Assembly: GCF_039537585.1 (NCBI RefSeq)
Contig: NZ_BAABAU010000005.1
Location: forward strand, 62,334-126,333
Direction of reading: 5' to 3'
Origin: Frondihabitans peucedani
Lineage (GTDB): Bacteria > Actinomycetota > Actinomycetes > Actinomycetales > Microbacteriaceae
Length of the DNA stretch: 64,000 nt
Under the pieces are notes generated by a model. The model was not told the DNA's origin and ran no database searches. It was given only the letters and a program-made list of their open reading frames with translations. The translations under genes were made by a program, and so were the position numbers. This document shows positions 1 to 64,000 of the stretch, piece by piece. Positions within the stretch are counted from its first letter, which is position 1; the number at the start of each line of letters is the position of its first letter.

Positions 1-800
1 GCATCCAGCCCACCAAGAAGCTGGGCCAGAACTTCGTCCACGACGGCAACACGGTGCGCAGGATCGTCGCCACCGCCAAGGTCGCCCCGGGCACCTCCGT
101 GGTCGAGATCGGTCCCGGCCTCGGCTCCCTCACCCTCGGCCTGCTCGAAGCGGGAGCCCGGGTCGTCGCCGTCGAGATCGACAAGCGTCTCGCCGAGCAG
201 CTCCCCGAGACGGTGCGTCTCCTGCAGCCGGACGCCGACCTCACCGTCGTCGTCGACGACGCCATGCGGGTGACGGCGCTCCCCGCCGAGCCGACGCACC
301 TCGTCGCCAACCTGCCCTACAACATCTCGGTGCCGGTCCTGCTCCACTTCCTCGAGCACTTCCCCTCCCTGACGCGGGGCCTGGTGATGGTGCAGGCCGA
401 GGTCGGCCTCCGCCTCGCCGCAGCTCCAGGATCGAAGGTCTACGGCTCACCGAGCATCAAGGCGGCCTGGTACGGCATCTGGTCGACCGCCGGGCAGGTC
501 TCGCGGCAGGTGTTCTGGCCGGTGCCGAACGTCGACAGCATCCTCGTCGCCTACGACCGCCGCGATCCCAAAGGCACCGAGGCCGAGCGCGCGGCGACCT
601 TCGAACTCGTCGACGCCGCGTTCCAGCAGCGCCGCAAGATGCTCCGGCAGTCGCTGTCGGTCGTCTTCGGCACCTCCTCCGAGGCATCCGACGCCATCGA
701 GCAGGCCGGCCTCGCGCCGACCTCGCGAGGCGAGGAGCTGACGGTCGACGACTTCCTCGCGATCGCGCGCGTCCGACTGCGGGCCGCAGCGGGGGAGTAG
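1..800 (+). CDS. rsmA: RsmA/KsgA 16S rRNA dimethyltransferase, 5'-truncated by window edge
   Basis: Dimethylates two adjacent adenines near the 3' end of 16S rRNA with SAM during late 30S assembly. The reading frame is open from base 3. The first visible residues are the family's N-terminal KKLGQNFVHD block, so only a short N-terminus is missing. Visible signatures are the SAM-binding motif VVEIGPGLGSLT, the catalytic motif NLPYN about 103 residues from the edge, and the C-terminal QRRKMLRQSL helix of the rRNA-binding domain. The stop is TAG at 798. It sits two bases before the next gene. In most actinobacteria ispE follows directly, but here ispE is 12 kb away. Confidence 0.97.
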   Translation, partial: IQPTKKLGQNFVHDGNTVRRIVATAKVAPGTSVVEIGPGLGSLTLGLLEAGARVVAVEIDKRLAEQLPETVRLLQPDADLTVVVDDAMRVTALPAEPTHLVANLPYNISVPVLLHFLEHFPSLTRGLVMVQAEVGLRLAAAPGSKVYGSPSIKAAWYGIWSTAGQVSRQVFWPVPNVDSILVAYDRRDPKGTEAERAATFELVDAAFQQRRKMLRQSLSVVFGTSSEASDAIEQAGLAPTSRGEELTVDDFLAIARVRLRAAAGE

Positions 801-802
801 CC

Positions 803-1357
803 GTGCCCCGGAGCCCGAGCGCCGCAGGCGGCCTCAGCGACGCCAAGCTGGCCGCGCGCACCGGCCGGAGCGCCCGCGACTGGTTCGAGATCCTCGACGC
901 CGAAGCGGCGACCCGGCTCTCGCACGATCAGATCGTGTCGCTCCTCGTCGACGTCTACGAGGCGCCCGAGTGGGGAGCGCAGGCGGTGGCCGTGCGCTAC
1001 CAGCACGATCACGGCATCCGGCTGCCGGGCGAGCAGGACGACGGCACCTTCACCGTGTCGGCGAGCAGGAGCATCCGCGGCGCGCAGCAGGCCGTGCTGG
1101 ATGCCGCGATCCTGCGCCTGTCCGCCCTGGCGAAGAGCGAGCCCGACGAGGTCCACCGCCTTCCCGAGCGCACCACCGCCTCGTGGACGCTCGGCTCCGG
1201 CGACCTGCTCGTCGCGCGAGTCGTCTCGTCAGACGGCGACCGCTGCTCGATCTCGCTGGTGCAGTCGGGCATCCGGCTGCCCGAACTCGTCGCCGGGCTC
1301 CGCCAGACCCTCGAGAAGACGGTCGTCAGAGTCGCCGGCGACATCGCTCAGGCCTGA
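803..1357 (+). CDS. DUF4287-type conserved protein
   Basis: 184-residue cytoplasmic protein of unknown function. Residues about 10-65 (TGRSARDWFEILDAEA, then LSHDQIVSLL, then EWGAQAVAVRYQ) match the pattern of the DUF4287 domain common in actinobacteria. The rest resembles the START/SRPBCC-like second half often fused to it. No signal peptide or membrane segment is seen. The GTG start lies two bases after the rsmA stop, so it is probably co-transcribed with rsmA. The family assignment is from memory of its N-terminal motif. No catalytic residues can be named. Confidence 0.8.
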   Translation: MPRSPSAAGGLSDAKLAARTGRSARDWFEILDAEAATRLSHDQIVSLLVDVYEAPEWGAQAVAVRYQHDHGIRLPGEQDDGTFTVSASRSIRGAQQAVLDAAILRLSALAKSEPDEVHRLPERTTASWTLGSGDLLVARVVSSDGDRCSISLVQSGIRLPELVAGLRQTLEKTVVRVAGDIAQA

Positions 1358-1421
1358 CGACGGGCCGAGACGAGGGCCCGAGGCGAGGATCCCAGGCGAG
1401 CAACCCCGACGACCGCCGACC

Positions 1422-4400
1422 TCAGGGCGTCGTCGCGACCAGGTCGTCGACTGAGAGGCTCTGCGCCCCGGCAGCCGACGACCCCGACACGTAGCTGAGC
1501 AGCCCGAGCGACCCGGGAGCCTGCAGCGCCGCAGCGGAGCTCGTCGCCGTCACCATCCAGGCCGACGGCTCCGTCGTGCCCGCGATCCAGGCTTTCGCCC
1601 GGAGCGTCGTGGGGCTGGTGCCGACGACCTGGAGACGGGTGCTGATCCGGGTCCCGGCGCCGATCGATCCTGCGACGCGGACCGGGTTCGCGATGGTCGT
1701 GCCCGCGCCCACCAGGGAGACCGTGGCCGTCCCGCTGCCGGTCAGCTGGACGGTCGCCCGATAGTCGCTCGACCCGATCTTCCGTCCCTGCAGCGACACC
1801 TGGGTGCCTCCGCCGGACGCCGCCTGCGCGAGCGCGAAAGTCACGGAGAGGTCGACGCCGGTCTGGGAGACCGAGGCGAGCGTCGCTCCGGCCTGCGCGC
1901 TCGGCCCGCTGAGCGTGATCCTGCCTGTCCCCGTCTGCATGGAGAGGTTGGAGGCGCTGCCCACGCTCGTCCAGGCGCCGCCGACATCAGCAGTGCCCCA
2001 GCCGCTCGAGAGGGTGCGCCCGAAGGCGTCGGAGGCGACGGTGCCGGACGTTGCGGGAACCGTGACTGTCACCTGGCGGCTCGTGGACGCTGTCGCGCCT
2101 CCGTTGTCGGTCACGGTGAGCGAGGCCGAGTAGGAGCCCGCAGCGGCATAGGCGTGCGTCGGAGTCGCACCGGTCGCCGTGGCTCCGTCTCCGAAGCTCC
2201 AGCTGTACGAGGCGATGGAGCCGTCCGGGTCGGACGACGAGGAGCCGTCGAACGTCGCCTGGAGGCCGGAGGCGCTCTGGGTGAACGAGGCGGTCGGGGC
2301 GGTGTTCGTCGGGGGCGTCGAGGCACCGGTCGCGCTGGCGTAGTGCGCCTGGACCTGAGCCGCCGTCAACGCGGCCGGGTAGATCGACACGTCGTCGATG
2401 GAGCCGGCGAACCAGGGCGAGCCGTTCCAGGTGCTGTCGCCGCCGATCCTCCAGTAGCCGACGGGGATGCTCTGGGCGCTCACCGACGACCGGCTGGCGA
2501 TGAGCCGGCCGTCGACGTAGAGGTTCATCCCGGACGAGCCGAGCGTCGCGACTGCCTGGTGCCAGTGCCCGTCGTTGAGAGCGGCCGGGCTCGTCAGCGT
2601 CACGAGCGAGCCGTTGTAGACGCCGAAGTTGAGTCGCCCGTCCGTCGACAGGTACAGGTGGCGGTCGTACTGCGTCGAGACGCCCGTCGACTGCTCCCCG
2701 AAGCCCAGGATCTTGCCGCCGGCCGTCGTGGTCGTCGAGAACCAGGCCTCCTCGGTGAAGGTCTGCGGTGCGGCCACCGGCGACTGGGTTGCGGCGAAGC
2801 CGGTCGTCGTCCCGTTGAAGGTCGAGGCCCGGTCGCCGTCCGAGACGGCTCCGGCCGCTCCGCGGGTCACGCCGGCGCCGGCGACGAGGTCGTTGTTCCC
2901 GGCGAAGTCGCGGACAGCCGAGCCGCTGGTCTCGTCCAGACGCCAGAAGTCGGACGGAGCGTCGGCGAGCACGCGCCCCGGGTAGCCGCTCGGCTGCGAC
3001 GAGGCGGCGGTGATCGAGACGCTGTTGCCGAGGACGGTGTTCCCGAACGGATCGGTCGCGCGGAGGCGATAGCTGTGGGTCGATCCGGGCACCAGCCCGG
3101 TGTCGGTGAAGGCGAGCTCGGGTCGCAGCCAGGTGGTCGAGTAGGCGGTCGTCGTGTAGACCGGGGTCGACGAGCCGTCGCGGTAGAGGGCGTACGAGAG
3201 GGTGCCGTTGTCGCGGTCGGCGTTGGCGAGCCAGCTCGCCTTGACCGAGCCCGACCGGACCGAGGTCAGATTCGGGACGAACTGGCCTCCGGTGACGACG
3301 GGGCCGTCCTTGTTCGGCGCGATCGACGGGACGGCGAAGCGCACGAGGCCCTGCTGCGCGATGCCGTCGACCGTGGGGAACTCGCCTCCGTACACGACGT
3401 AGTCGTCGTTCGCGGCGACGCTCCAGGCCGCCTGCGTCTTGCCGGTGTAGGTCCCCGGTGTCAGCGTCGGGTTCCAGTTCAGGAGCGACGGACCGGGCGT
3501 GCCCGCGAAGTCCGTGTAGGTGGAGCCCCAGGGGTTCGCCGTCAGGGTGAGTGTCGCCGCCTTGCTGAAGGCCGTCGCTCGGTGGAACGTGAAGTTCGGG
3601 TTCGTCTGCTGGAAGCCCTGGAGGTCGCCGCAGAAGTGGGCGTGGCTCGTCGCGTACAGGGCGGTCGACGAGACCGCGGTCGAGTACGTGTCGCCGTGGC
3701 AGTCCGCGATCCACACCAGGTCGCCGTTCCAGTCGGCTCGGAAGGTCCCCTCGAGAGTCCCTCCGGTGCCGAAGACGTAGCCGGATCCATAGACCCCGGT
3801 GGAGTCGCCGGTGAGACTCGTGATCCCGGCCATCGAGCCGCCGTCTCGGACCTTCGTCGTGTTGGCGGCCCAGGGCAGGAGCGCGCCCGAGGTCGAGTCG
3901 ACGGCGCCGAGCCCGTAGCCCGGGTTCCCCGACCCGTTCAGAGTGGTGAAGGCGCCTCCGACGACGACCTTCCCGCCGTCGGGGGAGACCGCCAGCGACG
4001 ACACGTTGCCGCCGACCGCGGACGGGTTCCAGGGCAGGATCGCGCCCGTCGTCGCGTCGACCGCAGCCAGCTGGCCCCGCGACACACCCGCTCCGCCGAC
4101 CGTCGCGGTCACCGAGGTGAAGGCGCCGCCGAGGTAGAGGGTGTTGCCGCGGACGGCGAGCGCGTTGACCGTCGAGTTCGCGGTGGCGGTGAAGGCCGAG
4201 ACGAGAGCCCCGGTCTTCGCGTCGACCTTCGCGATCCGGGTCCTGGTCGCACCGTCGACCTGGGTGAAGGAGCCGGCCACGAAGAGCGACGATCCGTCGG
4301 AGGAGGCGGCGACCGCTTTCACCTGCGCGTTCGTCGACGCGGTGAAGGCCGAATCGAGGATTCCGGTGGTGATGTCGTACGAGAGGAGATTCGCGCGAGA

Positions 4401-4688: not shown

Positions 4689-4766
4689 GAGGTGGCCTCT
4701 GTCTGTTCGGTCGTTCGTCCGGTGGTGCAGGGGGTGGAGCGTGGGCTGATGCAGGATCAGCGCGCC

Positions 4767-7115
4767 CTAGGTGCCGGTGGCGGCCCGGTACTGCGCGGCG
4801 ACCTGTGCGTCGGTGAGCGCTGCCGGGTAGACCGAGACATCGTCGATGGTTCCGGTGAAGTAGTGGGCCCCGAGCCAGGGGGTGTCGCCGCCGACGCGCC
4901 AGTAGCCCCAGGTCCGCGAGAGCGCGAACGAGCCCGACCTGCGGGCGACGGCGCGGCCGTCGAGGTAGAGCGTCATGGTCGTCGGGGTGACCGTGGCGGT
5001 CGCGAAGTGCCACCTGCTGTCGGCGACCGACCTCGGGGAGGAGAGCACGGGCGATCCTGCGGACCGGATCCCGAACGCGAGGAGGCCGTTCGCGGTCACC
5101 GCGAGCGACCGGTCGACGGTGTCGGAGAGGAGCGGGCTGTTGCTGCCGAAGTCGACCACGGTGCCGCCGTGACCGGGAGCGGCCCGGAACCAGGCGCCGA
5201 CCGACATCGTCGACACCGAGGGCCAGGAGGGCGTCGCGGTCGCGGCGGTGGTCGTGGCGGATGCGGAGAACTGCGTCGCGGTGCTGCCGTCGACGCTCGA
5301 CCCTGCGGCGCCCGCAGTCGGGTAGCCGGTCAGGATCTGGGGCGTGTAGCCGGCGAGATCCTGCACCGCGCTCCCCTTCGACTGGCCGAAGCGCCAGAAG
5401 TTCGACGCCCCCTGCCCTGTGACGACCGCCGCGTAGCCGGTGGGGCCGGCGGAGGCAACCGTGATCGAGACGTTGTCGCCCAGCACGGTGTTGCCGAAGG
5501 GGTCGGTCGCGCGCACGCGGTAGGCGTAGGAGTGCCCCGGCACGAGCCCTGCGTCGGTGAACCCGATCTGCGGCCGGAACCAGACCGACGAGTTCCTCGT
5601 CGTCGTGTAGACGGGCGTCGGGTCGCCGTCGCGGTAGACGTCGTAGCGGAGCGCCTTGTTGTCGGGATCGGCGTTCGAGGTCCAGCCCACCCGCACGACG
5701 CCGCTCGCGGGAGACGTCAGCTGCGGGACGAAGGCGGCCCCGCTCGACACCGGACCGACGCGGTTCGGCGCGAGGGAGGGGGTCGCGAACCGCACGAGCC
5801 CCTGCTGCGCCTTCCCGTTCACGGCTGTGAACTCTCCGCCGTAGACGACGTACTGGGAGGTGCCGGCCACGGTCCAGGCGGCCTGGCCCTTCCCGGTGAA
5901 GGTGCCCGGAGTGAGGTCGGGATACCAGTCGAGGAGCGACGGTGCCGGCCGCCCGCCGAAGTTCGCGTAGGCGTGGCCGGAGGCGGTGTTCGTCGCCACC
6001 TTCTGGGTCGCCGTGGCCGAGAAGGCGATCGCCCGGTGGTGGCTCTCCGGCGATGTCTCGCGGAAGCCGCCGACGTTGCCGCAGTAGTGCGCGTGGCCGG
6101 CGATGTAGACGACGCCGCCCACGACCGCGCTGCCGTAGGTGTCGCCGTGGCAGTCCTCCACCCAGGTGAGGTCGCCCGCCGTCCAGTCGGCGCGGAACGC
6201 GCCCTCCAGGTTGCCGCCGTCGCCGAACGTGTACCCGGTGCCGTAGAGACCGGTGCTCGTCGAGGTCAAGCTGGTGATCGCCGAGTTCTTGCCACCGTTG
6301 CGGACGACCGAGTTCACATGCCAGGGGAGGTTCTTGCCGGACGCGGAGTCGACGGCTCCCAGTCCGTACCCGGGGTTCGCCGACTTGTCGAGCGTCGTGA
6401 ACGCCCCGCCGACGACGACCTTCTTGCCGTCGGGCGAGAGGGCCAGCGCGTTGACGACGCCCCCGGTCGCAGACGGCGTCCAGGTCGAGAGCCCGCCGGT
6501 GGTCCCGTTCACGGCGGCGAGCTGCTGACGGGTCTTGCCGGTCGACCAGGTGAACGATCCGCCGAAGTAGACCGTCGAGCCTCGGCGGACGATGCTCTTC
6601 ACCGTGCCGTTGGCGGAGGCCTTGAAAGCGGGGGTGAGGGCGCCTGTCGTGGCGTCGATCTCCGCGATCCTGCTCTTGGCGGCACTGCCCACCTTGGTGA
6701 AGGAGCCGCCGATGTAGAGGTGCTTCCCGTCGGCCGCCGTGCTGATCGCCTGGACGTCGCCGTTGAGCACCGGCGCGAACCGGGTGTTGAGCGCGCCCGT
6801 GCGGATGTCGAACGCCAGCATCGAGGTCCGCTTGACGGTGTGTGTTCCTGCGGCGGCTCCCGCCGGGCGTGCGTTCGCGAACTTCCCGCCGACGTAGACG
6901 GTGTTCCCGACGACGAGCTCGGTCCAGACGACGCCGTCGATCTGGGGGGTCGGCAGCGGGTCGGCTGTGACGGTGGTGGGAGTGGCCGCGTTCTTCGGAT
7001 CGGCGGGTGCCGAGTCCGCCCTGGCCGAGTCGGCGACGGCGACAGTGCCGGCGACGAGAGCCAGGGTGATCAGAACTGCGGGCATTCTCCTGTTTCGGGA
7101 CAGGAAGGAAGCCAA
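4767..7115 (-). CDS. Secreted beta-propeller/FnIII/LamG protein, shorter paralogue
   Basis: 782 residues. The mature N-terminus (DSAPADPKNA..., then PTPQIDGVVWTELV), the propeller (about 45-430), the FnIII-like segment ending RVRATDPFGNTVLG and the LamG domain (about 570-780, IDDVSVYPAALT) align domain by domain with the downstream 1088-residue protein. The PKD and C-terminal domains are absent. The TTG start at 7115 gives a normal signal peptide with a charged n-region (SRNRR). ATG at 7085 would remove those charges and has its Shine-Dalgarno-like AGGAGA too close. The 78-bp gap to the next gene suggests one operon. No catalytic residues are recognised. The pair looks like a tandem duplication followed by domain loss or gain. 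Confidence 0.86.
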   Translation of the reverse strand: MASFLSRNRRMPAVLITLALVAGTVAVADSARADSAPADPKNAATPTTVTADPLPTPQIDGVVWTELVVGNTVYVGGKFANARPAGAAAGTHTVKRTSMLAFDIRTGALNTRFAPVLNGDVQAISTAADGKHLYIGGSFTKVGSAAKSRIAEIDATTGALTPAFKASANGTVKSIVRRGSTVYFGGSFTWSTGKTRQQLAAVNGTTGGLSTWTPSATGGVVNALALSPDGKKVVVGGAFTTLDKSANPGYGLGAVDSASGKNLPWHVNSVVRNGGKNSAITSLTSTSTGLYGTGYTFGDGGNLEGAFRADWTAGDLTWVEDCHGDTYGSAVVGGVVYIAGHAHYCGNVGGFRETSPESHHRAIAFSATATQKVATNTASGHAYANFGGRPAPSLLDWYPDLTPGTFTGKGQAAWTVAGTSQYVVYGGEFTAVNGKAQQGLVRFATPSLAPNRVGPVSSGAAFVPQLTSPASGVVRVGWTSNADPDNKALRYDVYRDGDPTPVYTTTRNSSVWFRPQIGFTDAGLVPGHSYAYRVRATDPFGNTVLGDNVSITVASAGPTGYAAVVTGQGASNFWRFGQSKGSAVQDLAGYTPQILTGYPTAGAAGSSVDGSTATQFSASATTTAATATPSWPSVSTMSVGAWFRAAPGHGGTVVDFGSNSPLLSDTVDRSLAVTANGLLAFGIRSAGSPVLSSPRSVADSRWHFATATVTPTTMTLYLDGRAVARRSGSFALSRTWGYWRVGGDTPWLGAHYFTGTIDDVSVYPAALTDAQVAAQYRAATGT

Positions 7116-7313: not shown

Positions 7314-8633
7314 TCAGAAGTCGAGCAGATTCGCCCGCAGGCCCCCGGAACCGGCTTCGGGGCGCAGGATGCCGCGGCTCCGGAGCTCGGGGACGAGCGC
7401 GTCGAGAGTGCGGTGCACGGTCGCCGGATGCAGGTCGCCGTTGAAGATGAAGCCGTCGTTGTCGGCGTCGTCGCCGAGCCGCTCGATGAAGTCGGCGACC
7501 TGGCCGACCGTTCCGACGAAGCCGGTGCCGTCCGCGATCCTGCCCTTGCGGTACTTCGCGACGAACAGCTCGCGGAGCGGCGTGTCCGGGGGAGCGCTGC
7601 CGACGAGGCCGCCGATGCTGCCCTTCGAGACGTGCTGCCCGAAGACGCCCGGGTCGAGGGGCGCGTCGAGGTCGAGGCCGGTGAGGTCGGTCTCGGTGAT
7701 GATCGACTGCCGCTCGATCACCTCGTGCAGGTCGGCGTCGCTCGGGTGAGCCGAGGCCGCCACGATGCGGTCGACCTCGTCCTGGCTGGCGACGATCTCC
7801 GGCGTCAGGACGAAGAGGATCCTGAGCGACGCAGGATCCCGCCCCTCCGCCACCGCTGCCGCGTGGATCTTCGCGCGGTACGCCCTCACGGTCTCGACGT
7901 CGAGTTTCGCGAGCGCGAGCTGCACGTCGGAGTTGCGGCCCGCGAACGCGAGCCCCCGGCCGGAGCCGCCGGGCGAGACGATGACGGGGTCGCCGCCCTC
8001 GTCGTCGAACGGCAGCGCGTTGAGGGGGCCGTCGAGCGAGAAGTAGTCGCCGCGGTGCTGGAAGGCGTCGAGCTTCGAGCCGTCGGCGTAGCGCCAGGTG
8101 TCGGTGTCCTCGACGACCGCGCCGTCCGCCCAGCTGTGCCAGAGCTGCCGGACGACGTGCATCCACTCCTCGGCCCGGTCGTAGGCGGCGTCGTGGTCGA
8201 GCTCCGGGATGCCGAAGTGCCGGCTCCCCTTGACGTCGGTGACGACGTTGAGGCCCACCCGGTAGTCGCTCAGGTGCTGGAGGGTCGCGAACTGCCGGGC
8301 GGCCAGGTAGGGCGGGAAGACGCCGGCGTTGATCGTCGGCGCGATTCCCAGGCGGCTCGTCGCCGCGAACAGGTAGGGGGTCAGGAGGAGCGGGTCGAGC
8401 TTCGGGGCCCCCAGCGCTCCGCGGACGCGGAGGTCGAGCTGCTCCGCGGGCCCGGGCGACAGGCTGTCCTCGATGATCAGGAGGTCGAGACCGGCGCGCT
8501 CCAGCTCGGCGGCCGACGACTGGTAGAGGCCCGGGCGGTCCCAGGGGAGGTTCCAGTGCCAGTCGGGGCGCAGCCAGCCCTGCGGGCCGAACCCGCGCCC
8601 GAAGAACCATCCGAAGTGCTGCATCCGTGCCAT
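7314..8633 (-). CDS. LLM-class flavin-dependent monooxygenase, NtaA/SnaA/DszA-like
   Basis: 439 residues, TIM-barrel bacterial-luciferase superfamily, typical length of the NtaA/SnaA/DszA subgroup. These enzymes use reduced FMN from a partner reductase to oxygenate small sulfur, nitrogen or chelate compounds. Family marks are the N-terminal WRPDWHWNLPWDRPGLYQ-like region, GLNVVTDVKGSRHFG (the VTS/VTD-N-FG region), the long YFSLDGPLN strand and VIVSPGGSGRGLAFAGRN in the flavin/phosphate region. The substrate cannot be deduced: no reductase or sulfonate transporter gene is adjacent. It is transcribed divergently from the surface-protein gene. Confidence 0.85.
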   Translation of the reverse strand: MARMQHFGWFFGRGFGPQGWLRPDWHWNLPWDRPGLYQSSAAELERAGLDLLIIEDSLSPGPAEQLDLRVRGALGAPKLDPLLLTPYLFAATSRLGIAPTINAGVFPPYLAARQFATLQHLSDYRVGLNVVTDVKGSRHFGIPELDHDAAYDRAEEWMHVVRQLWHSWADGAVVEDTDTWRYADGSKLDAFQHRGDYFSLDGPLNALPFDDEGGDPVIVSPGGSGRGLAFAGRNSDVQLALAKLDVETVRAYRAKIHAAAVAEGRDPASLRILFVLTPEIVASQDEVDRIVAASAHPSDADLHEVIERQSIITETDLTGLDLDAPLDPGVFGQHVSKGSIGGLVGSAPPDTPLRELFVAKYRKGRIADGTGFVGTVGQVADFIERLGDDADNDGFIFNGDLHPATVHRTLDALVPELRSRGILRPEAGSGGLRANLLDF

Positions 8634-8850: not shown

Positions 8851-10677
8851 ATGAAAGCATCCCTGCGCCACCTCCTCGTCGTTCCCGCAGCCCTCCTCCT
8901 CGGCCTCGGCGGCACGGCCCTCGTGTCGGTGCCCGCCAGCGCCGCGCCGGCGGCGACCCCCACCCCGACGCAGTCGCCGACTCCGACGCAGTCCCCCACC
9001 CCGACGCAGTCGCCGACCCCGACGCAGTCGCCGACCCCGACGCGTCCGCCCAGCCCCAAGCGCGCGACCTCCTCCGACCTCGTCCTCACCTCGCCCCGAC
9101 CGGACCAAGACGGCTCCGTCCGGGTCCAGGGGCCGCGCACGCTCACCCTCGAGGGCACGGCTCCCGTCGGGTCGCGGCTCTCCGTCACGGACAGTGATGG
9201 TGCCGTGATCGCGCGGACGACCACGACGACCTCGTCATTCTCGATCCCGTTGACCTTCGCCGCCGACGCGGGCTACGAGCAGTTCCTCAGCCTCTTCGGC
9301 ACGAGCGCCGGCCGCGCCCTCACCGAGGTCGATCTCGACGTGACCTTCGATGCGGAGACCAGCGAGACGCCGACGATCCTGGCCCCCTCGACGGGCAGCA
9401 CCTACCGCGTCGCGCCAGCGCCGTTCGCGGGCGGACAACCGAACGCGATCATCGAGTTCTCGGGAACCGGCACGCCGGGCGACACGATCGACCTGTACTC
9501 GTCCCGGGACGACGAGGACTTCGACGGCGGCCCCACGGACGCCATCGTGGTCGGGGCCGACGGCACGTGGACAGGTGACTACTCCGTGGTGTTCGGGTCG
9601 GTGAGCGTCACGGCAGCCGCTGCGCGGTACACGGACGACGGCGACCAGACGACGATCGAATCGGCCGAGTCCTCGCCCGTCGACCTCACGGTGTCGCCGC
9701 CGGTCGGCGCGATTCTGCCGCCGCGCATCACGAGCCCGAACTACGACGGTCTCGACTTCAGCGCCTCGATCGACCCCGGCACCGACACGGTGTACGTGAA
9801 CACGTACTCGTCCGAGTCCGAGTCCGAGTCCGAGTCCCAGTCCCAGTCCCAGTCCGCCTCCGCCTCACGCGTCGCTCCGCGCGGCGCCGACCGGCCGCGG
9901 ACGCAGTCCGCGAAGATCGCGGCGCGATCGATCGCGACGACCGACTGGGCCGCCCGACCCGCAGTCGGCGTCGTCCAGCGGAAGCTATCCAGCGTCGTCG
10001 CCCTGGCGAAGCTCTCCGAGGGCAGGGCGCGCGCGGCCGACGACTTCCCCGAGACGCTCGACGGCGTGATCGACGAGTACGGCATCCCCGTCACCGGCAG
10101 AACGAGCGCGACGACGACCGGAGCCGTCGACATGACGGTCTCCGGCACGGGAACCCCCGGCGACGACATCGTGCTCTACGAGGAGAAGGGCGACGACGCG
10201 CTCACCTACCTCAGCGGCCTCTACCCGGCTCTATTCGCATCCTCCGGCGACCCGGCGCCGCTCCAGCCCGAGTCCGCGCGCCGCGTGGTTCCTGCCGCGG
10301 TGAGCACCGGTGATCCTGCCGCGACCTCGTCGCTGCCCGTCGACGACGGAACGGTCCGGGTCGGATCAGACGGCCAGTGGTCGGCGACGCTCACCCGCGA
10401 GCCCGGCGACTACCTGCTGACCGCCTTCGCAGCTCGGAGCGGCGGCACGCAAACGGCCGACTTCTCGGTCGCGACCGATGTGAGCCTCATCCACCTCACC
10501 GGAACGCCCCGAGCGGCGGCAGGCGTGACGCCGACCTCGGGCGTCGCCGAACTCGCCTTCACCGGGTCGACCACCTGGCCGACGCTGGCGGTCGGCCTCG
10601 GCGGGCTGGCGGCAGGCGGCGTCCTGCTGGTCGTCGCGCGTCGTCGACGCCCGCGTCCTGCCACCGACGCGACGTAG
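8851..10677 (+). CDS. LAxTG-anchored surface protein with Pro/Thr and Ser/Glu low-complexity tracts
   Basis: 608 residues. ATG at 8851 (or GTG at 8848) opens a clear signal peptide (KASLRHLLVVPAALLLGLGG, cleavage near ASA). Next come five PTPTQS-type repeats (about residues 37-66), beta-sandwich-like segments with two FSGTGTPGDTIDLY / VSGTGTPGDDIVLYEE repeats, and a SESESES-SQSQSQ tract (about 321-338). The C-terminus has LAFTG (568-572), a hydrophobic segment and RRRRPRP, the layout of a substrate for class E (LAxTG) sortases of high-GC actinobacteria. It is therefore probably cell-wall linked; its function is unknown, perhaps adhesion. No sortase gene lies in the window. The in-frame extension upstream of 8848 lacks a signal and is rejected. 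Confidence 0.87.
   Translation: MKASLRHLLVVPAALLLGLGGTALVSVPASAAPAATPTPTQSPTPTQSPTPTQSPTPTQSPTPTRPPSPKRATSSDLVLTSPRPDQDGSVRVQGPRTLTLEGTAPVGSRLSVTDSDGAVIARTTTTTSSFSIPLTFAADAGYEQFLSLFGTSAGRALTEVDLDVTFDAETSETPTILAPSTGSTYRVAPAPFAGGQPNAIIEFSGTGTPGDTIDLYSSRDDEDFDGGPTDAIVVGADGTWTGDYSVVFGSVSVTAAAARYTDDGDQTTIESAESSPVDLTVSPPVGAILPPRITSPNYDGLDFSASIDPGTDTVYVNTYSSESESESESQSQSQSASASRVAPRGADRPRTQSAKIAARSIATTDWAARPAVGVVQRKLSSVVALAKLSEGRARAADDFPETLDGVIDEYGIPVTGRTSATTTGAVDMTVSGTGTPGDDIVLYEEKGDDALTYLSGLYPALFASSGDPAPLQPESARRVVPAAVSTGDPAATSSLPVDDGTVRVGSDGQWSATLTREPGDYLLTAFAARSGGTQTADFSVATDVSLIHLTGTPRAAAGVTPTSGVAELAFTGSTTWPTLAVGLGGLAAGGVLLVVARRRRPRPATDAT
8959..9048 (+). repeat. Five 18-bp tandem repeats encoding PTPTQS
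   Basis: Five consecutive 18-bp units, nearly identical at the DNA level, encode PTPTQS four times and then PTPTRP. They follow the signal peptide of the LAFTG protein and likely form an extended wall-spanning stalk. Copy number may vary between strains. Confidence 0.85.
9811..9864 (+). repeat. Hexanucleotide tandem tract encoding SE/SQ/SA repeats
   Basis: TCCGAG four times, TCCCAG three times, then TCCGCC twice, coding SESESESE-SQSQSQ-SASA. It lies mid-way in the LAFTG surface protein between two beta-rich halves and probably acts as a flexible linker. Units differ by single bases, consistent with slippage expansion. Confidence 0.9.
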
Positions 10678-10727: not shown

Positions 10728-11690
10728 GTGACTGAGCACCCCCGCGTCTACGTGATCCACGAGAACCCCGAGTGGTTCCCGCCCCTCCGAGCAGCCTTCG
10801 AGGCCGAGGGGGTGCCGGTCGAGGAGCTCCTGCTGACCGACGGCTCGATCGACCTGACCTCGGAGCCGGCCCCCGGCGTCTACTGGTCGCGCATGTCGGC
10901 CAGCGCGCACACCCGCGGCAACGAGTTCTCGAAGGAGTACACCCGCGCCGCGCTGTCCTGGCTCGAGGCGGCCGGCCGCCCCGTCGTGAACGGCCGCGGC
11001 GTGATCGACCTCGAGGTGAGCAAGGTGCAGCAGCACCTGGGCCTCCAGTCGCTCGGCTTCGACGTGCCGCGCACCTCCGCCGTCTTCGGCACCCGCGACC
11101 TCGCAGCGGTCGCCGCGACCTTCCCCGTGCCGTTCATCTCGAAGCACAACCAGGGCGGCAAGGGTCTCGGCGTCCGCCGCTGGGACTCCCAGGAGGAGTT
11201 CGCCGCCTGGGTCGACTCCGCCGAGTTCGAGTCGTCGCCCGACGGCATCACGCTCATCCAGGAGCTGCTCCAGGCCGCGCAGCCGTTCAACACGCGCGCC
11301 GAGTTCGTCGGGGGCGAGTTCGTCTACGCCGTGCAGGTCGACACCTCCGGCGACACCTTCGAGTTCTGCCCGGCCGACGCCTGCGCCCTGCCCGGCGCCG
11401 CGCCGCTCTTCCAGCTGCGGGAGAAGACCGCCGACGGCGCTCCGATCGCCGAGCACCCCGTGATCCTGCGCCTCCCCGAGTTCCTGTCGGCGAACGGCAT
11501 CGAGATCGCCGGAGTGGAGTTCATCGAGACCGTCGACGGACGCCAGGTGGTCTACGACGTCAACACGAACACGAACTACAACCCCGAAGTGGAGGCGGCC
11601 TCCGAGAAGTCGGGGCCTCAAGAGATCGCGAGGTTCCTCGGCGCCCGGCTCGCTGCGCACTACCCCGAGACGGCGGGGGTGCTCGCATGA
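10728..11690 (+). CDS. ATP-grasp family ligase
   Basis: 320 residues, cytoplasmic. An N-terminal Rossmann-like part (RVYVIHENPEW...) is followed by an ATP-grasp fold: KHNQGGKGLGVRRW is the glycine-rich phosphate loop, LIQELLQ the adenine-contacting strand, and VVYDVNTNTNYNPEVE supplies the metal-binding Asp/Asn residues. It resembles RimK-like carboxylate-amine/thiol ligases, which make an acyl-phosphate with ATP. The substrate is unknown. Its stop overlaps the start of the flavin monooxygenase gene (ATGA at 11687-11690), implying translational coupling and a shared pathway. The start is supported by a leaderless -10 box. Confidence 0.85.
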   Translation: MTEHPRVYVIHENPEWFPPLRAAFEAEGVPVEELLLTDGSIDLTSEPAPGVYWSRMSASAHTRGNEFSKEYTRAALSWLEAAGRPVVNGRGVIDLEVSKVQQHLGLQSLGFDVPRTSAVFGTRDLAAVAATFPVPFISKHNQGGKGLGVRRWDSQEEFAAWVDSAEFESSPDGITLIQELLQAAQPFNTRAEFVGGEFVYAVQVDTSGDTFEFCPADACALPGAAPLFQLREKTADGAPIAEHPVILRLPEFLSANGIEIAGVEFIETVDGRQVVYDVNTNTNYNPEVEAASEKSGPQEIARFLGARLAAHYPETAGVLA

Positions 11691-35105: not shown

Positions 35106-35223
35106 ATATGAAAGTAGCACGGCGGGGTCCCCGGATGCCTCGAAATTCTGCCCGTGAAGCCTGCGGTTTCGGCGCCGCGTCGTGATCCTGCCTCGGACAC
35201 GCCCGCCCCGCCCCGCCGCGCCC

Positions 35224-44825: not shown

Positions 44826-44850
44826 ACGGCGACCGACGCAGGATCCGACG

Positions 44851-54609: not shown

Positions 54610-55818
54610 CTAGGGGCGGGCGGCCTTCGCAGCGACGGCGGCCTCGTGGGCAGCGCGGCGACGGCGGGAGTCGGCCTGCTTCAGCCCGCGGACCAGCACG
54701 GCCGCGATCACGATCGACACCGCCGATCCGAGGAGCACGGCCAGGGTCCCCTCGTCGACGATCTCCTGCGACCGTGCGAAGGCCAGCTCGTTCATCAGCA
54801 GCGACACGGTGAACCCGATCCCGCCGAGCATCGCCACGGCGACGAGCTCGCGGATGCTGAGCGTCTGGCTGCGCCGGGCAGGATCCGGGTTGCGGAAGAT
54901 GCGCGACGCGATGCCGCCGGCGACGGTGATGCCGATGAGCTTGCCGACGGGCAGCGCGACGACGATCGCCCAGAACACCGGGCTCAGCTCGCCGAGGCCG
55001 ACGCTCGGCACGACGACAGCGGCGGCGGCGAAGGCGAACACCGGAAGGACCACGCCGTTGGTGACGGGCTCGAGCGCGTGGACCGCCTTGCGCGCGGGCT
55101 TCAGCGGGAGCACGAGGCCCACGGCGACGGCGGCGATCGTCGCGTGCACGCCCGACCGGTAGACCAGGTACCAGGTCACGACGGCCAGGAGCACGACGAC
55201 CACGACGGCCAGCACCGCCAGGGCTCCCTCGAACCGGCCGAGGAACCGCCCGGCGACGAACGTCACGACGACCGACACGACCGCCAGCCCGAGGAACAGC
55301 AGGTCGCTGCCGTGGGTGAAGAAGATGGCGATGATCAGGATCGCGATCAGGTCGTCGAGCACCGCCAGCGCCAGGAGGAACACCCGGATGCGGCCGGGGA
55401 GCGCCGAGCCGAACACGGCCAGGACGCCGAGGGCGAAGGCGATGTCGGTCGCCGTCGGGATCGGCCAGCCGGAACCGTAGCGGGTGCCGAGCGTGACGAG
55501 CGCGTACAGCCCGGCCGGGGCGAGGACCCCGCCGACGGCCGCGATCGCCGGCACGACGGCCTTGGAGACCGAGTTGAGGTCGCCGCGGAGCAGCTCGTGC
55601 TTGAGGTCGACCGCGACGACGAAGAAGAACAGCGCGAGGAGGCCGTCGCTGACCCAGTGCCCGACCGAGAGGTTCAGGCCGAGCGCCGGGATGTCGAGGT
55701 GGTGGTCTTTGATCGGGAGGAGACCGGGCCCGGTGGGCAGGTTGGCGAGGACGAGGCCGAGGACAGCGGCGCCGAGGAGGAGACCGGCAGAGGCGCGTTC
55801 GGATCGGAGGAGGCTCAT
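54610..55818 (-). CDS. nhaA: NhaA-type Na+/H+ antiporter
   Basis: 402 residues, about twelve membrane helices. FFFVVAVDLKHELLRGDL, PTATDIAFALGVLAVFGSALP, the ion-binding double Asp in LALAVLDDLIAILIIAIFF, and LLGGIGFTVSLLMNELAF-like C-terminal region match NhaA. It exchanges external protons for internal sodium. ATG at 55818 chosen; the longer in-frame extension overlaps mazG antisense. The cytoplasmic tail is Arg/Ala-rich. Functionally it could use a proton gradient made by the rhodopsin, though the genes are separate. Confidence 0.93.
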   Translation of the reverse strand: MSLLRSERASAGLLLGAAVLGLVLANLPTGPGLLPIKDHHLDIPALGLNLSVGHWVSDGLLALFFFVVAVDLKHELLRGDLNSVSKAVVPAIAAVGGVLAPAGLYALVTLGTRYGSGWPIPTATDIAFALGVLAVFGSALPGRIRVFLLALAVLDDLIAILIIAIFFTHGSDLLFLGLAVVSVVVTFVAGRFLGRFEGALAVLAVVVVVLLAVVTWYLVYRSGVHATIAAVAVGLVLPLKPARKAVHALEPVTNGVVLPVFAFAAAAVVVPSVGLGELSPVFWAIVVALPVGKLIGITVAGGIASRIFRNPDPARRSQTLSIRELVAVAMLGGIGFTVSLLMNELAFARSQEIVDEGTLAVLLGSAVSIVIAAVLVRGLKQADSRRRRAAHEAAVAAKAARP

Positions 55819-55896: not shown

Positions 55897-56613
55897 GTGA
55901 CGGCGGACGACGGGAGCCCAGTGCCAGAGACCGAGCAGGATCAGGCCCTCCGCGACCTCGTGAGCACGGTCGACGCGCTCCTCGACCCGCCCGGCTGCGA
56001 GTGGAACCGCGCCCAGACGCACCGCTCTCTCGTCACGTACCTGATCGAGGAGACCTACGAGCTCGTCGAGGCGATCGAGGACGGCGACGTGACAGACCTC
56101 CGCGAGGAGCTCGGCGACGTGCTCTACCAGGTGGTCCTCCACGCGGGCATCGCCTCCCGCTCGGGCGAGGGCTTCGACCTCGGAGACGTCGTGGCCGAGG
56201 TGGACGAGAAGATCCGCCGCCGCCACCCGCACGTCTTCGGCGCCGACAGCGCGAACGGGGTCGACGACATCGTGCGGCTGTGGTCGGCGGCGAAGGCACG
56301 CGAGAAGACCTCCCGGGAGAGCGCGTACGACGGGGTGCCGCTCGGGCTGCCGGCGCTGGCACGCGCGCAGAAGATCGGGTCGAGGGCCGAGGCGACGGGC
56401 GCGGTGTCGGAGCCCGCAGGATCCTGCGCCCCCGTCACGGCGCCGGAGCCCGACTCCGAAGAGGCCTGGGGGCGTTGGCTCCTCGAGCGGGTCGACGAGG
56501 CGTCGAGCCGTGGCTGGGACGCGGAGCGGGCCCTCCGCGGGGCCCTGCGCGAGCGGGAGAGCGCCCTGCGCGAGGCGGAGAGGAGACGGCGGGGCACCCC
56601 ACAACCCGAATAG
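55897..56613 (+). CDS. mazG: MazG family nucleoside triphosphate pyrophosphohydrolase
   Basis: 238 residues from GTG at 55897 (GTG at 55888 also possible). One MazG domain: CEWNRAQTHRSLVTYLIEETYELVEAIEDGD, DLREELGDVLYQVVLHA (metal-binding EExxE/ExxD pattern) and DVVAEVDEKIRRRHPHVFG. It hydrolyses (d)NTPs to monophosphates, probably cleaning aberrant nucleotides. The second MazG copy of the E. coli protein is replaced by a divergent helical C-terminus. Backbone position between mfd and eno is conserved. Confidence 0.93.
   Translation: MTADDGSPVPETEQDQALRDLVSTVDALLDPPGCEWNRAQTHRSLVTYLIEETYELVEAIEDGDVTDLREELGDVLYQVVLHAGIASRSGEGFDLGDVVAEVDEKIRRRHPHVFGADSANGVDDIVRLWSAAKAREKTSRESAYDGVPLGLPALARAQKIGSRAEATGAVSEPAGSCAPVTAPEPDSEEAWGRWLLERVDEASSRGWDAERALRGALRERESALREAERRRRGTPQPE
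56416..56427. repeat. Palindromic dimer GCAGGATCCTGC of the over-represented octamer (in mazG)
   Basis: Both orientations of the octamer GCAGGATC overlap head to head, forming a 12-bp palindrome inside mazG. A second identical dimer is in hisS at 58428-58439. See the finding on the octamer. Confidence 0.9.
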
Positions 56614-57895: not shown

Positions 57896-59155
57896 ATGCC
57901 CTCTCCCGTGACCCCGCCCCGCGGCATGCGCGACTTCCTGCCCTCCGACAAGCGCCGGCGCGACCTCGTGCTCGACACGATCCGGTCGACCTACCGCTCC
58001 TTCGGCTTCGACGAGATCGAGACGCCCGTCGTCGAAGACAGCGAGCGGCTCCACGCGGGTCTCGGCGGAGACAACGAGAAGCTCGCGTTCGCTGTCCTGC
58101 GCCGGGCCCTCAGCACCGACGACCTCCGCACGGCGGCCACCCCGCTCGACCTCGCCGACCTCGGCCTGCGCTTCGACCTGACCGTGCCGCTGGCCCGGTT
58201 CTACGCCACGCACCGCGCCGAGCTGCCGCCGGTCTTCCGTGCCGTCCAGATCGCACCCGTCTGGCGGGCCGAGAAGCCGCAGAAGGGGCGCTACCGCCAG
58301 TTCGTGCAGTGCGACATCGACATCATCGGCGAGCCCTCCGCGATGGCCGAGATCGAGCTCCTCTCGGCGACCTCGGCCGTGCTCGCGCGCCTCGGTCTCA
58401 TCGGCACGACGATCCGGATCAACGACCGCAGGATCCTGCTCGCCCTCCTCGCCCACTGGAACGTGCCGCTCGACCGCTTCGACACCGCGCTCGTCATCAT
58501 CGACAAGCTCGACAAGATCGGGGTCGGCGGCGTCGTCACGGAGCTCGCCGGAATCGACGTGCCCACCGCGGGCCTCGAGGCGCAGCTCGAGGAGCTCGCC
58601 GCCTCGACGTGGGAGTCGCTGTCCGGCGGCGCCGAGTGGCTCGACGAGGCCGCTTTCGCCGACCTGCTCGCCCTGCGCGCAGCGCTCCCCGACGCGGCCC
58701 TCGAGTTCGACCCCACCCTCGTCCGCGGCATGGGCTACTACACCGGCACGATCTTCGAGGTCGCTCACCCCGACTTCGGCTACTCCCTCGGCGGCGGCGG
58801 CCGGTACGACGGCATGATCGGGCGATTCCTCGGCGCCGACGTCCCGGCGGCCGGCTTCTCGCTGGGGTTCGAGAGGCTCGTCGACCTGGTGGAGCTGCCG
58901 GGCGACACGGGCGGGGAGGGTGTCGTGCTGCTGTACGACGCGTCCCTCGATCCTGCCGCTCTGGTCCGCCTGCAGCACGAGGTGGCGGCCCTCCACGCGG
59001 CGGAGGGCGTCGAACCCCGGGTCCGCCTCGACCGGAAGGCCAGGAACCTCAAGAACCAGCTCTCCGGGCTCGCGGCCCTCGGCTACGGCCGGTTCGCCGT
59101 CGTGCAGAGCGCCGACCAGACCGCCGAGACGCTGGAGTTCCGCGGGTTGGCGTGA
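57896..59155 (+). CDS. hisS: Histidyl-tRNA synthetase
   Basis: 419 residues from ATG at 57896. Class II aminoacyl-tRNA synthetase: PPRGMRDFLPSDKRRR, motif 1 region FGFDEIETPVVEDSERL, motif 2 FRAVQIAPVWRAEKPQKGRYRQFVQCDIDIIG, histidine-specific LVRGMGYYTGTIFEV and GGGGRYDGMIGRFLG, with a C-terminal anticodon-binding domain. The in-frame stretch from 57800 is non-conserved. A good hairpin follows the stop. Confidence 0.96.
   Translation: MPSPVTPPRGMRDFLPSDKRRRDLVLDTIRSTYRSFGFDEIETPVVEDSERLHAGLGGDNEKLAFAVLRRALSTDDLRTAATPLDLADLGLRFDLTVPLARFYATHRAELPPVFRAVQIAPVWRAEKPQKGRYRQFVQCDIDIIGEPSAMAEIELLSATSAVLARLGLIGTTIRINDRRILLALLAHWNVPLDRFDTALVIIDKLDKIGVGGVVTELAGIDVPTAGLEAQLEELAASTWESLSGGAEWLDEAAFADLLALRAALPDAALEFDPTLVRGMGYYTGTIFEVAHPDFGYSLGGGGRYDGMIGRFLGADVPAAGFSLGFERLVDLVELPGDTGGEGVVLLYDASLDPAALVRLQHEVAALHAAEGVEPRVRLDRKARNLKNQLSGLAALGYGRFAVVQSADQTAETLEFRGLA
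58428..58439. repeat. Palindromic dimer GCAGGATCCTGC (in hisS)
   Basis: Inside hisS, coding R-I-L with the rare Arg codon AGG. Same 12-bp palindrome as in mazG but in a different reading frame. Confidence 0.9.
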
Positions 59156-60565
<1,410 letters not shown>

Positions 60566-60637: not shown

Positions 60638-60731
60638 GGGGCGGGGGCGCCGGAGCGCGAGGCAGGACGACGCGGACCCGGCAGATGGCCTTGGCCGTCG
60701 TGCCGCTCCGGGATCCTGCGCGATCGTCGCC

Positions 60732-61861: not shown

Positions 61862-61866
61862 GGCCG

Positions 61867-63135
61867 ATGCGCAGGATCAGCCGCCCCGCCGCCCTCGCGG
61901 TGGTCGCCCTGGCGCTCTCGATCCTGCTCGCCCCCGTCGCCCTGACGGTCACCGCCCAGCCCGCGCGCGCCGACTCGCTCCGCGCCCGCGAGTACTGGCT
62001 CGACGACTACGGCATCCGGAGCGCCTGGTCGACGACCGAGGGGCAGGGCGTGACCGTGGCCGTCATCGACACGGGTGTCGACGGCTCGGTCCCCGAGCTC
62101 CGGGGGGTCGTCACCGGCGGCACCGACTTCTCCGGCAAGGGAGGAGCCGACGGTCAGACGCCGATCGACGACGACTCGTCGCACGGCACGCTCGTCGGAT
62201 CACTCATCGCCGGCCGCGGCACCGGGCCGACGTCCGGGATGATCGGCGTGGCTCCGAAGGCGCACCTGCTGTCGATCTCGGTCGGGTTCGGATCGAGCGC
62301 CGTCGACCCCGACGGGCAGATCGCGAAGGCCGTCGTCTGGGCCGTCGACCACGGCGCGAAGGTCATCAACATGTCGCTCACGCGCAACACGCTCGACTGG
62401 CCGACGAGCTGGGACAGGGCGTTTCTCTACGCAATGAAGCACGGCGTGGTGGTGGTGGCCGCGGCGGGGAACCGGGGGAGCGGGACCGACGAGGTCGGAG
62501 CGCCCGCGACGATGCCGGGCGTCCTCACCGTCGCCGGCGTCGACCAGGCGAAGAACGCCAGCTTCGACGCGTCCAGTCAGGGCATCACCATCGGCGTCGC
62601 GGCTCCGAGCGAGGGCCTCGTCGGCGTCGCTCCCGGTGGCGGCTACCTCCTCTGGTCGGGCACCAGCGGCGCGACCCCGATCGTCGCCGGCATCGCCGCC
62701 CTCGTGATCGCAGCCCACCCGGGGATCTCGGCCGACGACGTCATCCAGCGCATCGTCTCCACCGCTACGCCGAAGGGCACCCCGTCGCCGGGGCCCATCT
62801 ACGGACACGGCCTGGTCGACGCGCAGAAGGCGGTCACGGCCGACGTCGCGCACGTCACGAGCAACCCCCTCGGCGACCTGTCCGGCTGGATCCGGCTGCA
62901 CCGGCGGGCCGAGGCCACGCCGCAGGCGACGTCGAAGCCGGTGCCGACGACCCCGGTCACGGCGACGCCGACGACCGCGACGGCCGCGGGGACGGATGAC
63001 GGGATCCTGCCCTCCGCCGAGGGGATCCGCTCGGTGGGGATCCCGGTCACGGTCTATTCTCTTTTCGGAGTCATCTTCCTCGCCGTCGTCATCGGGGCCG
63101 CACGGCATCTCAGACGGATCCGCGCCAGGCGCTAG
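61867..63135 (+). CDS. Subtilisin-like S8 serine protease, mycosin-like, membrane-anchored
   Basis: 422 residues. The signal peptide (LAVVALALSILLAPVALTV) is cleaved near ARA-DS. The catalytic triad is Asp in VAVIDTGVDGS, His in DDDSSHGTLVGSLIAG and Ser in LWSGTSGATPIVAGIAAL, with AAAGNRGSG as oxyanion Asn region. A Thr/Pro linker (PTTPVTATPTTATAAG) leads to a C-terminal membrane helix (VTVYSLFGVIFLAVVIGAA) with a basic tail, so the protease domain faces outside. The layout equals that of type VII secretion mycosins, but no esx/ecc genes are in the window. It starts five bases after the DUF501 stop. Confidence 0.92.
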   Translation: MRRISRPAALAVVALALSILLAPVALTVTAQPARADSLRAREYWLDDYGIRSAWSTTEGQGVTVAVIDTGVDGSVPELRGVVTGGTDFSGKGGADGQTPIDDDSSHGTLVGSLIAGRGTGPTSGMIGVAPKAHLLSISVGFGSSAVDPDGQIAKAVVWAVDHGAKVINMSLTRNTLDWPTSWDRAFLYAMKHGVVVVAAAGNRGSGTDEVGAPATMPGVLTVAGVDQAKNASFDASSQGITIGVAAPSEGLVGVAPGGGYLLWSGTSGATPIVAGIAALVIAAHPGISADDVIQRIVSTATPKGTPSPGPIYGHGLVDAQKAVTADVAHVTSNPLGDLSGWIRLHRRAEATPQATSKPVPTTPVTATPTTATAAGTDDGILPSAEGIRSVGIPVTVYSLFGVIFLAVVIGAARHLRRIRARR

Positions 63136-63174
63136 CCTGGTCTCCGTCCCCACCTACCAAGGAGTCCATCACTC

Positions 63175-64000
63175 GTGCCCAAGATCCTCATCGTCGGCGG
63201 CGGATACGCCGGGTTCTACACCGCCTGGAAGCTCGAGAAGTGGCTGCGCAAGGGTGAGGCCGAGGTCACCGTGGTCGACCCGCTGCCCTACATGACGTAC
63301 CAGCCGTTCCTCCCCGAGGTCGCCGCCGGGTCGATCGAGCCGCGTCACGCCATCGTGTCGCTCCGCCGTCACCTGAAGAGCACGAACGTCATCACCGCCA
63401 AGGTGACGAAGGTCGACCACGCCACGAAGACCGCCACCATCACCCCCGAGGTCGGCGACGAGTGGACCATGGAGTACGACCAGGTCGTCATGACCGCCGG
63501 TGCCGTCTCGCGCACGTTCCCGATCCCGGGCGTCGCCGACGAGGCCATCGGCCTCAAGACGATCGAAGAGGCGCAGGCGATCCGCGACAAGCTCCTCACC
63601 AACTTCCAGAAGGCCGCCAACCTGCCCGCCGGGCCGCTGCGCGACCGTCTCCTGACCGTCGTCGTCGTCGGCGGCGGCTTCGCGGGCATCGAGATCTTCG
63701 CCGAGCTCCGCAGCTTCGCGACCGACCTCCTCAAGAACTACCCGGGCCTCACCATCGACGACACCCACTTCCACCTCGTCGAGGCGATGGGCAGGATCAT
63801 GCCCGAGGTCTCGCTTGAGACGAGCCACTGGGTGCTCAAGAACCTCGCCGAGCGCCAGGCGATCGTGCACCTCGACACGCAGCTCCAGTCGGCCGTCGGC
63901 GGCAAGATCGAGCTCTCGACCGGCGAGTCGTTCGAGTCCGACCTCATCGTCTGGACCGCTGGCGTCATGGCGAACCCCGTGGTCCGCAACACCGACTTCC
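63175..64000 (+). CDS. ndh: Type II NADH dehydrogenase (NDH-2), 3'-truncated by window edge
   Basis: First 275 residues; continues past the window. FAD-binding KILIVGGGYAGFYTAWKLEKWL, YMTYQPFLPEVAAGSIEPRH, TAGAVSRTFPIPGVADEA, the NAD-binding VVVVGGGFAGIEIFAELR and SDLIVWTAGVMANP match actinobacterial NDH-2, which passes electrons from NADH to menaquinone without pumping protons. GTG start with AAGGAG ten bases upstream. A TAGCCT box (63133-63138) overlaps the stop of the preceding protease gene. Confidence 0.94.
   Translation, partial: MPKILIVGGGYAGFYTAWKLEKWLRKGEAEVTVVDPLPYMTYQPFLPEVAAGSIEPRHAIVSLRRHLKSTNVITAKVTKVDHATKTATITPEVGDEWTMEYDQVVMTAGAVSRTFPIPGVADEAIGLKTIEEAQAIRDKLLTNFQKAANLPAGPLRDRLLTVVVVGGGFAGIEIFAELRSFATDLLKNYPGLTIDDTHFHLVEAMGRIMPEVSLETSHWVLKNLAERQAIVHLDTQLQSAVGGKIELSTGESFESDLIVWTAGVMANPVVRNTDF

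Follow-up and report, generated by a model that had tools for sequence, protein, structure and literature searches.

A non-palindromic octamer iterated throughout a Microbacteriaceae genome, apparently one dialect of a family-wide word and tentatively a self-DNA signal

An octamer, GCAGGATC (GATCCTGC on the opposite strand; hereafter the word), is iterated throughout the genome (G000) that contains the 64,000-nucleotide stretch of DNA analysed here (the window, which lies in contig 5), to an extent beyond what codon usage produces. A first-pass annotation of the window had estimated 60–70 copies where base composition would give two or three; exact matching returns 70 (29 GCAGGATC and 41 GATCCTGC) against 2.17 predicted at 71.5% G+C, and the six copies and both head-to-head dimers that it cited are all where it placed them. 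That annotation saw a single word, which now looks like one dialect of a word shared across the family, inferred to be Microbacteriaceae from the most frequent affiliation of the top named GlmU matches (nearest Frigoribacterium, 78%). We tentatively propose, with a probability of about 0.35, that the word marks DNA as the cell's own, much as a DNA uptake sequence does, and is read by a putative DNA-binding protein.

Results

The word is iterated genome-wide beyond codon usage

The enrichment extends well beyond the window, as the first-pass annotation had asked to see: the whole genome (3.69 Mb in 12 contigs) holds 3208 copies, 1579 on one strand and 1629 on the other, corresponding to 869 per Mb or about one per kb. 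The reversed pattern of GCAGGATC occurs 22 times in the same genome, a control that was not taken as a null because it contains CTAG and so flatters the word. Null models were evaluated in a 365-kb sample of G000 (the window, fifteen 20-kb stretches and one short piece), in which 316 copies are present against 26.5 by an order-2 Markov model. The codon-preserving shuffle, which the first-pass annotation had named as the analysis able to refute its claim, retained a mean of 78.6 copies (standard deviation 4.9, 20 replicates), so that codon usage explains only part of the excess. As this shuffle leaves noncoding DNA unchanged and 46 of the 316 copies fall outside called genes, subtraction gives 270 genic copies against ~33 expected, an excess of about eightfold.

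Genes were called by a simple caller using G+C by codon position, and phases and coding shares are to that extent approximate. Copies occur at 842 per Mb in coding and 1060 per Mb in noncoding DNA of the sample and occupy all six phases, which agrees with the earlier description of copies in both orientations and all frames. The further claim that the word overrides codon choice was borne out by rare codons: among 107,856 sampled codons, the word wholly contains 86 of 1050 GAT, 54 of 549 CCT and 59 of 625 AGG, or 8 to 10% of each. One correction applies. The commonest single phase (92 of the 270 genic copies) reads ATC CTG, two favoured codons, and ordinary codon usage therefore contributes to the excess over base composition; background copies in three outgroup samples are mainly in this phase as well (5/6, 12/14 and 8/14 genic copies).

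Copies in the window

The copies in the window, all exact matches, are as follows (coordinates, strand, feature; + denotes GCAGGATC, - denotes GATCCTGC; "cited" marks copies named in the first-pass annotation, and inverted partners come from the pair analysis below).

58..65, +, word
1108..1115, -, word
1666..1673, -, word
1917..1924, -, word
4034..4041, +, word
4751..4758, +, word
5053..5060, -, word
5357..5364, -, word
6666..6673, -, word
7536..7543, -, word
7831..7838, +, word
10312..10319, -, word
11462..11469, -, word
12353..12360, +, word
13433..13440, -, word, cited
13844..13851, -, word
15624..15631, +, word
16308..16315, +, word
16339..16346, -, word, inverted pair with 16308
19203..19210, +, word
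19635..19642, +, word
21687..21694, -, word
21771..21778, -, word
21839..21846, +, word
23567..23574, +, word
23983..23990, -, word
24199..24206, -, word
24442..24449, +, word
25432..25439, +, word
26103..26110, +, word
26826..26833, +, word
27595..27602, +, word
27965..27972, -, word
28836..28843, -, word
29489..29496, +, word
30600..30607, -, word
31166..31173, +, word
31520..31527, -, word
31957..31964, -, word
35184..35191, -, word
36078..36085, -, word
36635..36642, +, word, cited
37201..37208, -, word, cited
37902..37909, -, word
39361..39368, -, word, cited
39707..39714, +, word, cited
40157..40164, -, word
41982..41989, +, word
44568..44575, -, word
44838..44845, +, word
45454..45461, +, word
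46440..46447, -, word
46917..46924, -, word
47711..47718, -, word
48649..48656, -, word
51278..51285, -, word, cited
54878..54885, +, word
55935..55942, +, word
56416..56427, 56416 + and 56420 -, two overlapping words forming the palindrome GCAGGATCCTGC
58428..58439, 58428 + and 58432 -, two overlapping words forming the palindrome GCAGGATCCTGC
58949..58956, -, word
59154..59161, -, word
59782..59789, -, word
60712..60719, -, word
61871..61878, +, word
61920..61927, -, word, inverted pair with 61871
63003..63010, -, word
63791..63798, +, word

Three gene groups in the window were observed alongside. At 47598–49786, a bacteriorhodopsin-like gene (PF01036, E 1.9e-37) lies immediately before one for a lycopene cyclase (PF05834, E 1.2e-50), a pair that probably encodes a light-driven rhodopsin and the supply of its retinal. 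Two adjacent large proteins at 1422–7115 are alike in their N-terminal parts and carry Laminin_G_3 domains, with a PKD domain in one, which is suggestive of a surface protein duplicated in tandem. The two neighbouring proteins at 44851–46424 have no Pfam match and hold ALWNA or ALWSA in N-terminal hydrophobic segments, and at a guess are perhaps surface fibre or pilin-like proteins.

Related words mark other lineages of the family

Relatives were searched as whole genomes, comprising 299 members of the family. GCAGGATC is present in all seven genomes of g1, the genus of G000, at 222–869 per Mb, and at 538 per Mb in one genome of another genus (G075). The other 291 genomes reach at most ~230 per Mb, highest in genus g14 (densities outside g1 and G075 being read by eye with rounded genome sizes), so that by GCAGGATC alone the lowest g1 members do not stand above background. 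In 99 kb of Frigoribacterium no more than 6 copies occur.

Of 100 family genomes, 52 carry a second word, GGATGCCG, at more than 250 per Mb and 34 at more than 400 per Mb; its maximum is in G133 (4491 copies in 3.4 Mb, 1321 per Mb). GGATGCCG is near background in most family genomes of 1–1.8 Mb, G093 and G203 being the exceptions, and reaches only 108–229 per Mb in all eight GCAGGATC-rich genomes. The 9-mer CGGATGCCG was compared over 396 genomes of the order. Besides G000 these include 33 members of the family, most of the 33 from genera g100 and g106, and 30 of them lay above the top of the 362 non-family genomes (~127 per Mb, G521), the family members below it being G077, G190 and G492; the corresponding value for G000 is 58.

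Similar words (GGGCATCC, GGAGGCGC, CGGATCCG, GCAGGAAC and AAGGATCC) are iterated across lineages in a survey of 62 named Actinobacteria loci of ~20 kb together with genome samples. CGGATGCC/GGATGCCG is spread over phases in loci of Salinibacterium, Microbacterium, Marisediminicola, Okibacterium and Cryobacterium; GGATGCG forms are iterated in Pseudoclavibacter, GCCGATGC in one Demequina locus, and GGAGGCGC in Frigoribacterium and G063 (L001–L005 and L188–L190). Many of the loci and samples thus have their own word, many others show no clear iterated word, and as a single 20-kb locus is a small sample, weaker words there may be chance. A strong iterated word, CGGCATAC, occurs outside the Microbacteriaceae in two Knoellia (L058 and L069; 20 and 19 copies per 21 kb vs 0.5 and 0.4 by Markov). 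Frigoribacterium GGAGGCGC is more than twice as dense in intergenic as in genic DNA (2168 vs 843 per Mb).

Even within g1 the leading word varies, being GCAGGATC in G000, G006, G001 and G002, GCAGGAGC in G004 and additionally in G001, GCAGGAAC in G003 (where the excess over the codon shuffle is modest, copies being often intergenic and thus partly unshuffled) and AAGGATCC in G005. GGATCC-like cores recur in G005 and G075. G062 (genus g55; L221–L223), a genome without the pilus ATPase PilT, strongly iterates the palindrome CGGATCCG and the related GCGGATCC, with 74 and 63 copies where the codon shuffle gives 17.9 and 18.1 (the count registers each palindrome twice), a case like HIP1 (highly iterated palindrome 1). 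These lineage-specific words were recognized by word counts. Several are one or two steps apart (CGGATGCCG, GGATGCCC, CGGATCCG, CAGGATCC and AAGGATCC), and we read this stepwise likeness as suggestive of the drift of one system, with GCAGGATC apparently the genus-level dialect of a word iterated in many family members. As far as our searches reach, the iterated words of Microbacteriaceae are undescribed; among the open-licence matches listed, none described GCAGGATC or GGATGCCG in this family, which is weak evidence of absence, GGATGCCG not having been searched as letters.

Shape, strand and spacing of the word

Neither GCAGGATC nor GGATGCCG is a palindrome. The first position of the word tolerates other bases: before CAGGATC, each of the remaining three is also enriched, 3.6- to 4.3-fold over Markov in G000. 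The flanks show a weak preference for GC before the word and R-C-G after it. Near-neighbours at position 2 fall far under a Markov expectation that the word itself inflates (GAAGGATC, 3 vs 22.9; GTAGGATC, 0 vs 7.3), and the remaining one-mismatch neighbours are not depleted. A palindromic dimer was rejected as the true unit, since GCAGGATC is completed to a palindrome in 32 of 683 cases (4.7%, vs 3.8% of other GATC sites), near the frequency of independent copies.

In the closed relative G001, copies are again equal by strand (1072 and 1063), and no replication polarity was detected among 213 copies in 20 stretches (400 kb) round the chromosome (p = 0.27), a sample that by simulation has full power to detect 70:30 polarity. 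Even spacing, considered as a packaging or import unit, was likewise rejected, the distribution being near random (coefficients of variation 1.13 and 0.90). Non-overlapping pairs within 150 bp, pooled over samples from four genus members, were inverted in 36 cases and direct in 11 (p = 3.5e-4, an exploratory test); a few inverted pairs form intergenic hairpins whose arms resemble GGGCGCAGGATC...GATCCTGCGCCC.

Copies turn over and are scarce on a plasmid-like contig, and phages show little GGATGCCG

Among four word-rich g1 genomes, 76 of 195 aligned coding copies are intact vs a calibrated expectation of 46.2, counts that are ordered pairs and not independent, with the closest pair driving the signal (28/39 vs 11.8). 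Toward three word-poorer g1 members no excess conservation is seen (47/268 vs 45.0). This moderate positional conservation in g1 argues that density is maintained while places turn over. In-place switching of dialects was tried and rejected: at 45 aligned G000 sites, G003 has its GCAGGAAC once.

The plasmid-like contig 2 of G000 (94 kb) shows 1 copy in the 20 kb read (L097); the other fourteen 20-kb stretches hold 10–25 each. L097 has a G+C of 64% and, by eye, contains duplications of small genes as well as a relaxase-like protein; the contig is probably a plasmid or recent island. In parts of six Microbacterium phages, GGATGCCG occurs 18 times in 120 kb vs 11.5 by Markov, and one Microbacterium chromosomal locus has 28 copies in 21 kb vs 2.6; all but one of the six phages come from a single phage genus, and the comparison is with a single locus of the host genus.

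Most candidate readers do not fit the word

RecC was found in 0 of 100 family genomes, the control set being positive only in E. coli. ComEC is present in 98 of the 100 and is thus uninformative as a predictor of the word. A D12-class methyltransferase, the only class searched, is absent from the three genus members searched (G000, G001 and G005) and scores above cut-off in 19 of the 100 family genomes, including G075.

Known uptake sequences depend on the pilus retraction ATPase PilT, which is carried by 51 of the 100 family genomes. Median GGATGCCG density is 426 per Mb with PilT vs 171 without; in genomes larger than 2.3 Mb it is 461 vs 241 (p = 0.011), and with the four GCAGGATC-dialect genomes omitted 490 vs 241 (p = 0.0016). 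This first association probably reflects confounding by lineage and genome size, because within-genus contrasts over the 299 genomes cancel (16 mixed genera, 8 up and 8 down, p = 0.53). Genus g78 lacks PilT in 5/5 genomes and yet carries GGATGCCG at 483–862 per Mb. A prediction fixed before sampling, that PilT-positive GGATGCCG-poor genomes would carry another word and PilT-negative genomes none, held only in part: another word was clear in three (G063, G070 and G102) and weak in one (G083) of 10 PilT-positive genomes, and clear in one (G062) and probable in one (G120) of 10 PilT-negative genomes, 7 of which were sampled at 20 kb instead of 60. Two PilT-negative family genomes (G019 and G022, 100 kb each) show no clear iterated word of such kind. 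PilT-dependent uptake is thus not supported, given word-rich genera without PilT and the 8:8 split of mixed genera.

Discussion

A possible self-DNA signal

In the explanation that we tentatively prefer, a putative sequence-specific DNA-binding protein of the cell would read the word in either orientation, and DNA carrying it would be treated as the cell's own. The likeliest setting would be DNA import or the recombination of incoming DNA, in which word-bearing fragments would preferentially be kept; copies would then accumulate through this retention bias wherever protein coding permits, and the word of a genome would drift along with the specificity of its reader. Three parts of this model are our inference: a single system with a single reader would underlie all the dialects, that reader would act on incoming DNA, and the copies would owe their persistence to retention bias and not to some other benefit. 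A broader version, somewhat less probable in our estimate, is that Microbacteriaceae possess a self-recognition system like that of the Neisseria DNA uptake sequence (DUS) with a non-PilT reader, whose dialects would bound genera and even species, GCAGGATC being that of g1.

Several observations weigh against the self-DNA signal. To our knowledge, uptake specificity has been found in no Gram-positive bacterium. The PilT prediction failed in part, the within-genus contrast is null and g78 is word-rich without PilT, while ComEC is also present in small genomes that lack the word. Spacing is not even, and the excess of inverted pairs is not clear for other words, for which inverted and direct pairs number 12:6 (G014), 5:6 (Frigoribacterium), 4:0 (G003) and 0:1 (G005). 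Any model in which copies build up slowly would also account for the plasmid and phage results. Forms with one mismatch show a small rise (2036 per Mb vs 1779 in outgroups), in contrast to the gradual drive that PMC1939737 reports for uptake sequences. The word fails the PilT and graded near-match features and is not classed as a DNA uptake sequence; the uptake-like signal suggested in the first-pass annotation may still hold, but PilT-type pili do not track GGATGCCG within genera.

Weighing the rival explanations

The word misses at least one tested hallmark of each of HIP1, Chi and the polar segregation signals. We regard it as unlikely that the word is made and kept, as has been proposed for HIP1, by DNA modification with repair biased to the modified site and has no selected role itself. 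Its density and genome-wide spread do resemble HIP1, a likeness that the first-pass annotation had drawn and that stands in these respects, and for HIP1, too, certain lineages have alternate words, every one of them with a methyltransferase to match (PMC4390886). The palindrome of G062 and the GGATCC-like cores of G005 and G075, the latter with a D12 methyltransferase, point the same way. Against it, GCAGGATC and GGATGCCG are non-palindromic with palindromic completion near that of other GATC sites, and the words change, in our reading, by small steps and not by replacement. The methylation that the earlier annotation had suggested is weakened in its Dam-type form, since D12 is missing from three g1 genomes and sister genomes iterate GCAGGAGC or GCAGGAAC, which lack GATC; G075 has the enzyme. 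Regulation of a non-RecBCD recombinational helicase-nuclease such as AdnAB, with the word protecting own DNA and promoting recombination as Chi does, seems no more and no less unlikely. Such an enzyme is, as far as is known, general in Actinobacteria, and the words are non-palindromic, change in small steps and lie near background in phages and the plasmid-like contig. Known Chi sites are strand-biased, however, and no polarity was detected among the 213 copies from G001; RecC is absent from all 100 genomes, and mycobacterial AdnAB reportedly acts independently of Chi. The segregation or classical Chi signal put forward at first is disfavoured on the same two results.

Two explanations appear more doubtful still. 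As a binding site of a chromosome-organising or nucleoid protein, the word would account for about one site per kb over the sampled chromosome, in genes and gaps alike, but it shows neither polarity nor even spacing. Marginally the least probable is a neutral bias of mutation, repair or gene conversion that prefers a long sequence context and benefits no reader. Quick turnover of positions and the lack of excess conservation toward word-poorer relatives fit such a bias, and the deficit of GAAGGATC and GTAGGATC could represent emptied donor states, though here the word inflates the expectation; other one-mismatch neighbours are not emptied, however, mutation alone could hardly yield a context of eight or nine bases that differs between lineages, and Microbacterium phages show little GGATGCCG enrichment.

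Known iterated bacterial signals are few, and several have led to a DNA-handling machine (uptake pili, RecBCD and FtsK). If the word does mark the cell's own DNA, it would help to explain channelled gene exchange in Microbacteriaceae and could open a way to transform recalcitrant strains. The relation of dialect to genotype also provides a natural series for a search for the reader by comparative genomics.

Comparison with known systems

The FtsK orienting polar sequences (KOPS), the SpoIIIE recognition sequences (SRS) and the architecture imparting sequences (AIMS) are octamers found over the chromosome and strand-skewed to the terminus; the word shares their chromosome-wide occurrence and, in G001, shows no such skew. 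Chi sites are non-palindromic, octamer-like, over-represented and lineage-specific, all of which the word resembles; unlike Chi, it is without strand polarity and occurs in genomes without RecC. The cyanobacterial HIP1 (GCGATCGC) is an octamer whose density ranges from hundreds to a few thousand per Mb, with alternate words in some lineages and low counts in obligate symbionts (PMC4390886), and the word is comparable in density and in its alternate lineage words. It differs from HIP1 in being non-palindromic, in its small-step dialects and in the absence of D12 from three g1 members. DUS of Neisseriaceae and the uptake signal sequences (USS) of Pasteurellaceae are short and non-palindromic, occur about once per kb equally on both strands, in genes and gaps, and form inverted pairs, all features that the word displays. 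The word departs from them in its Gram-positive family, in a high GGATGCCG density that does not need PilT and in near matches that are hardly graded. DUS form lineage dialects across one family (PMC3630211), and the words reported here appear to do the same within theirs; by anatomy, the word is most like DNA uptake sequences.

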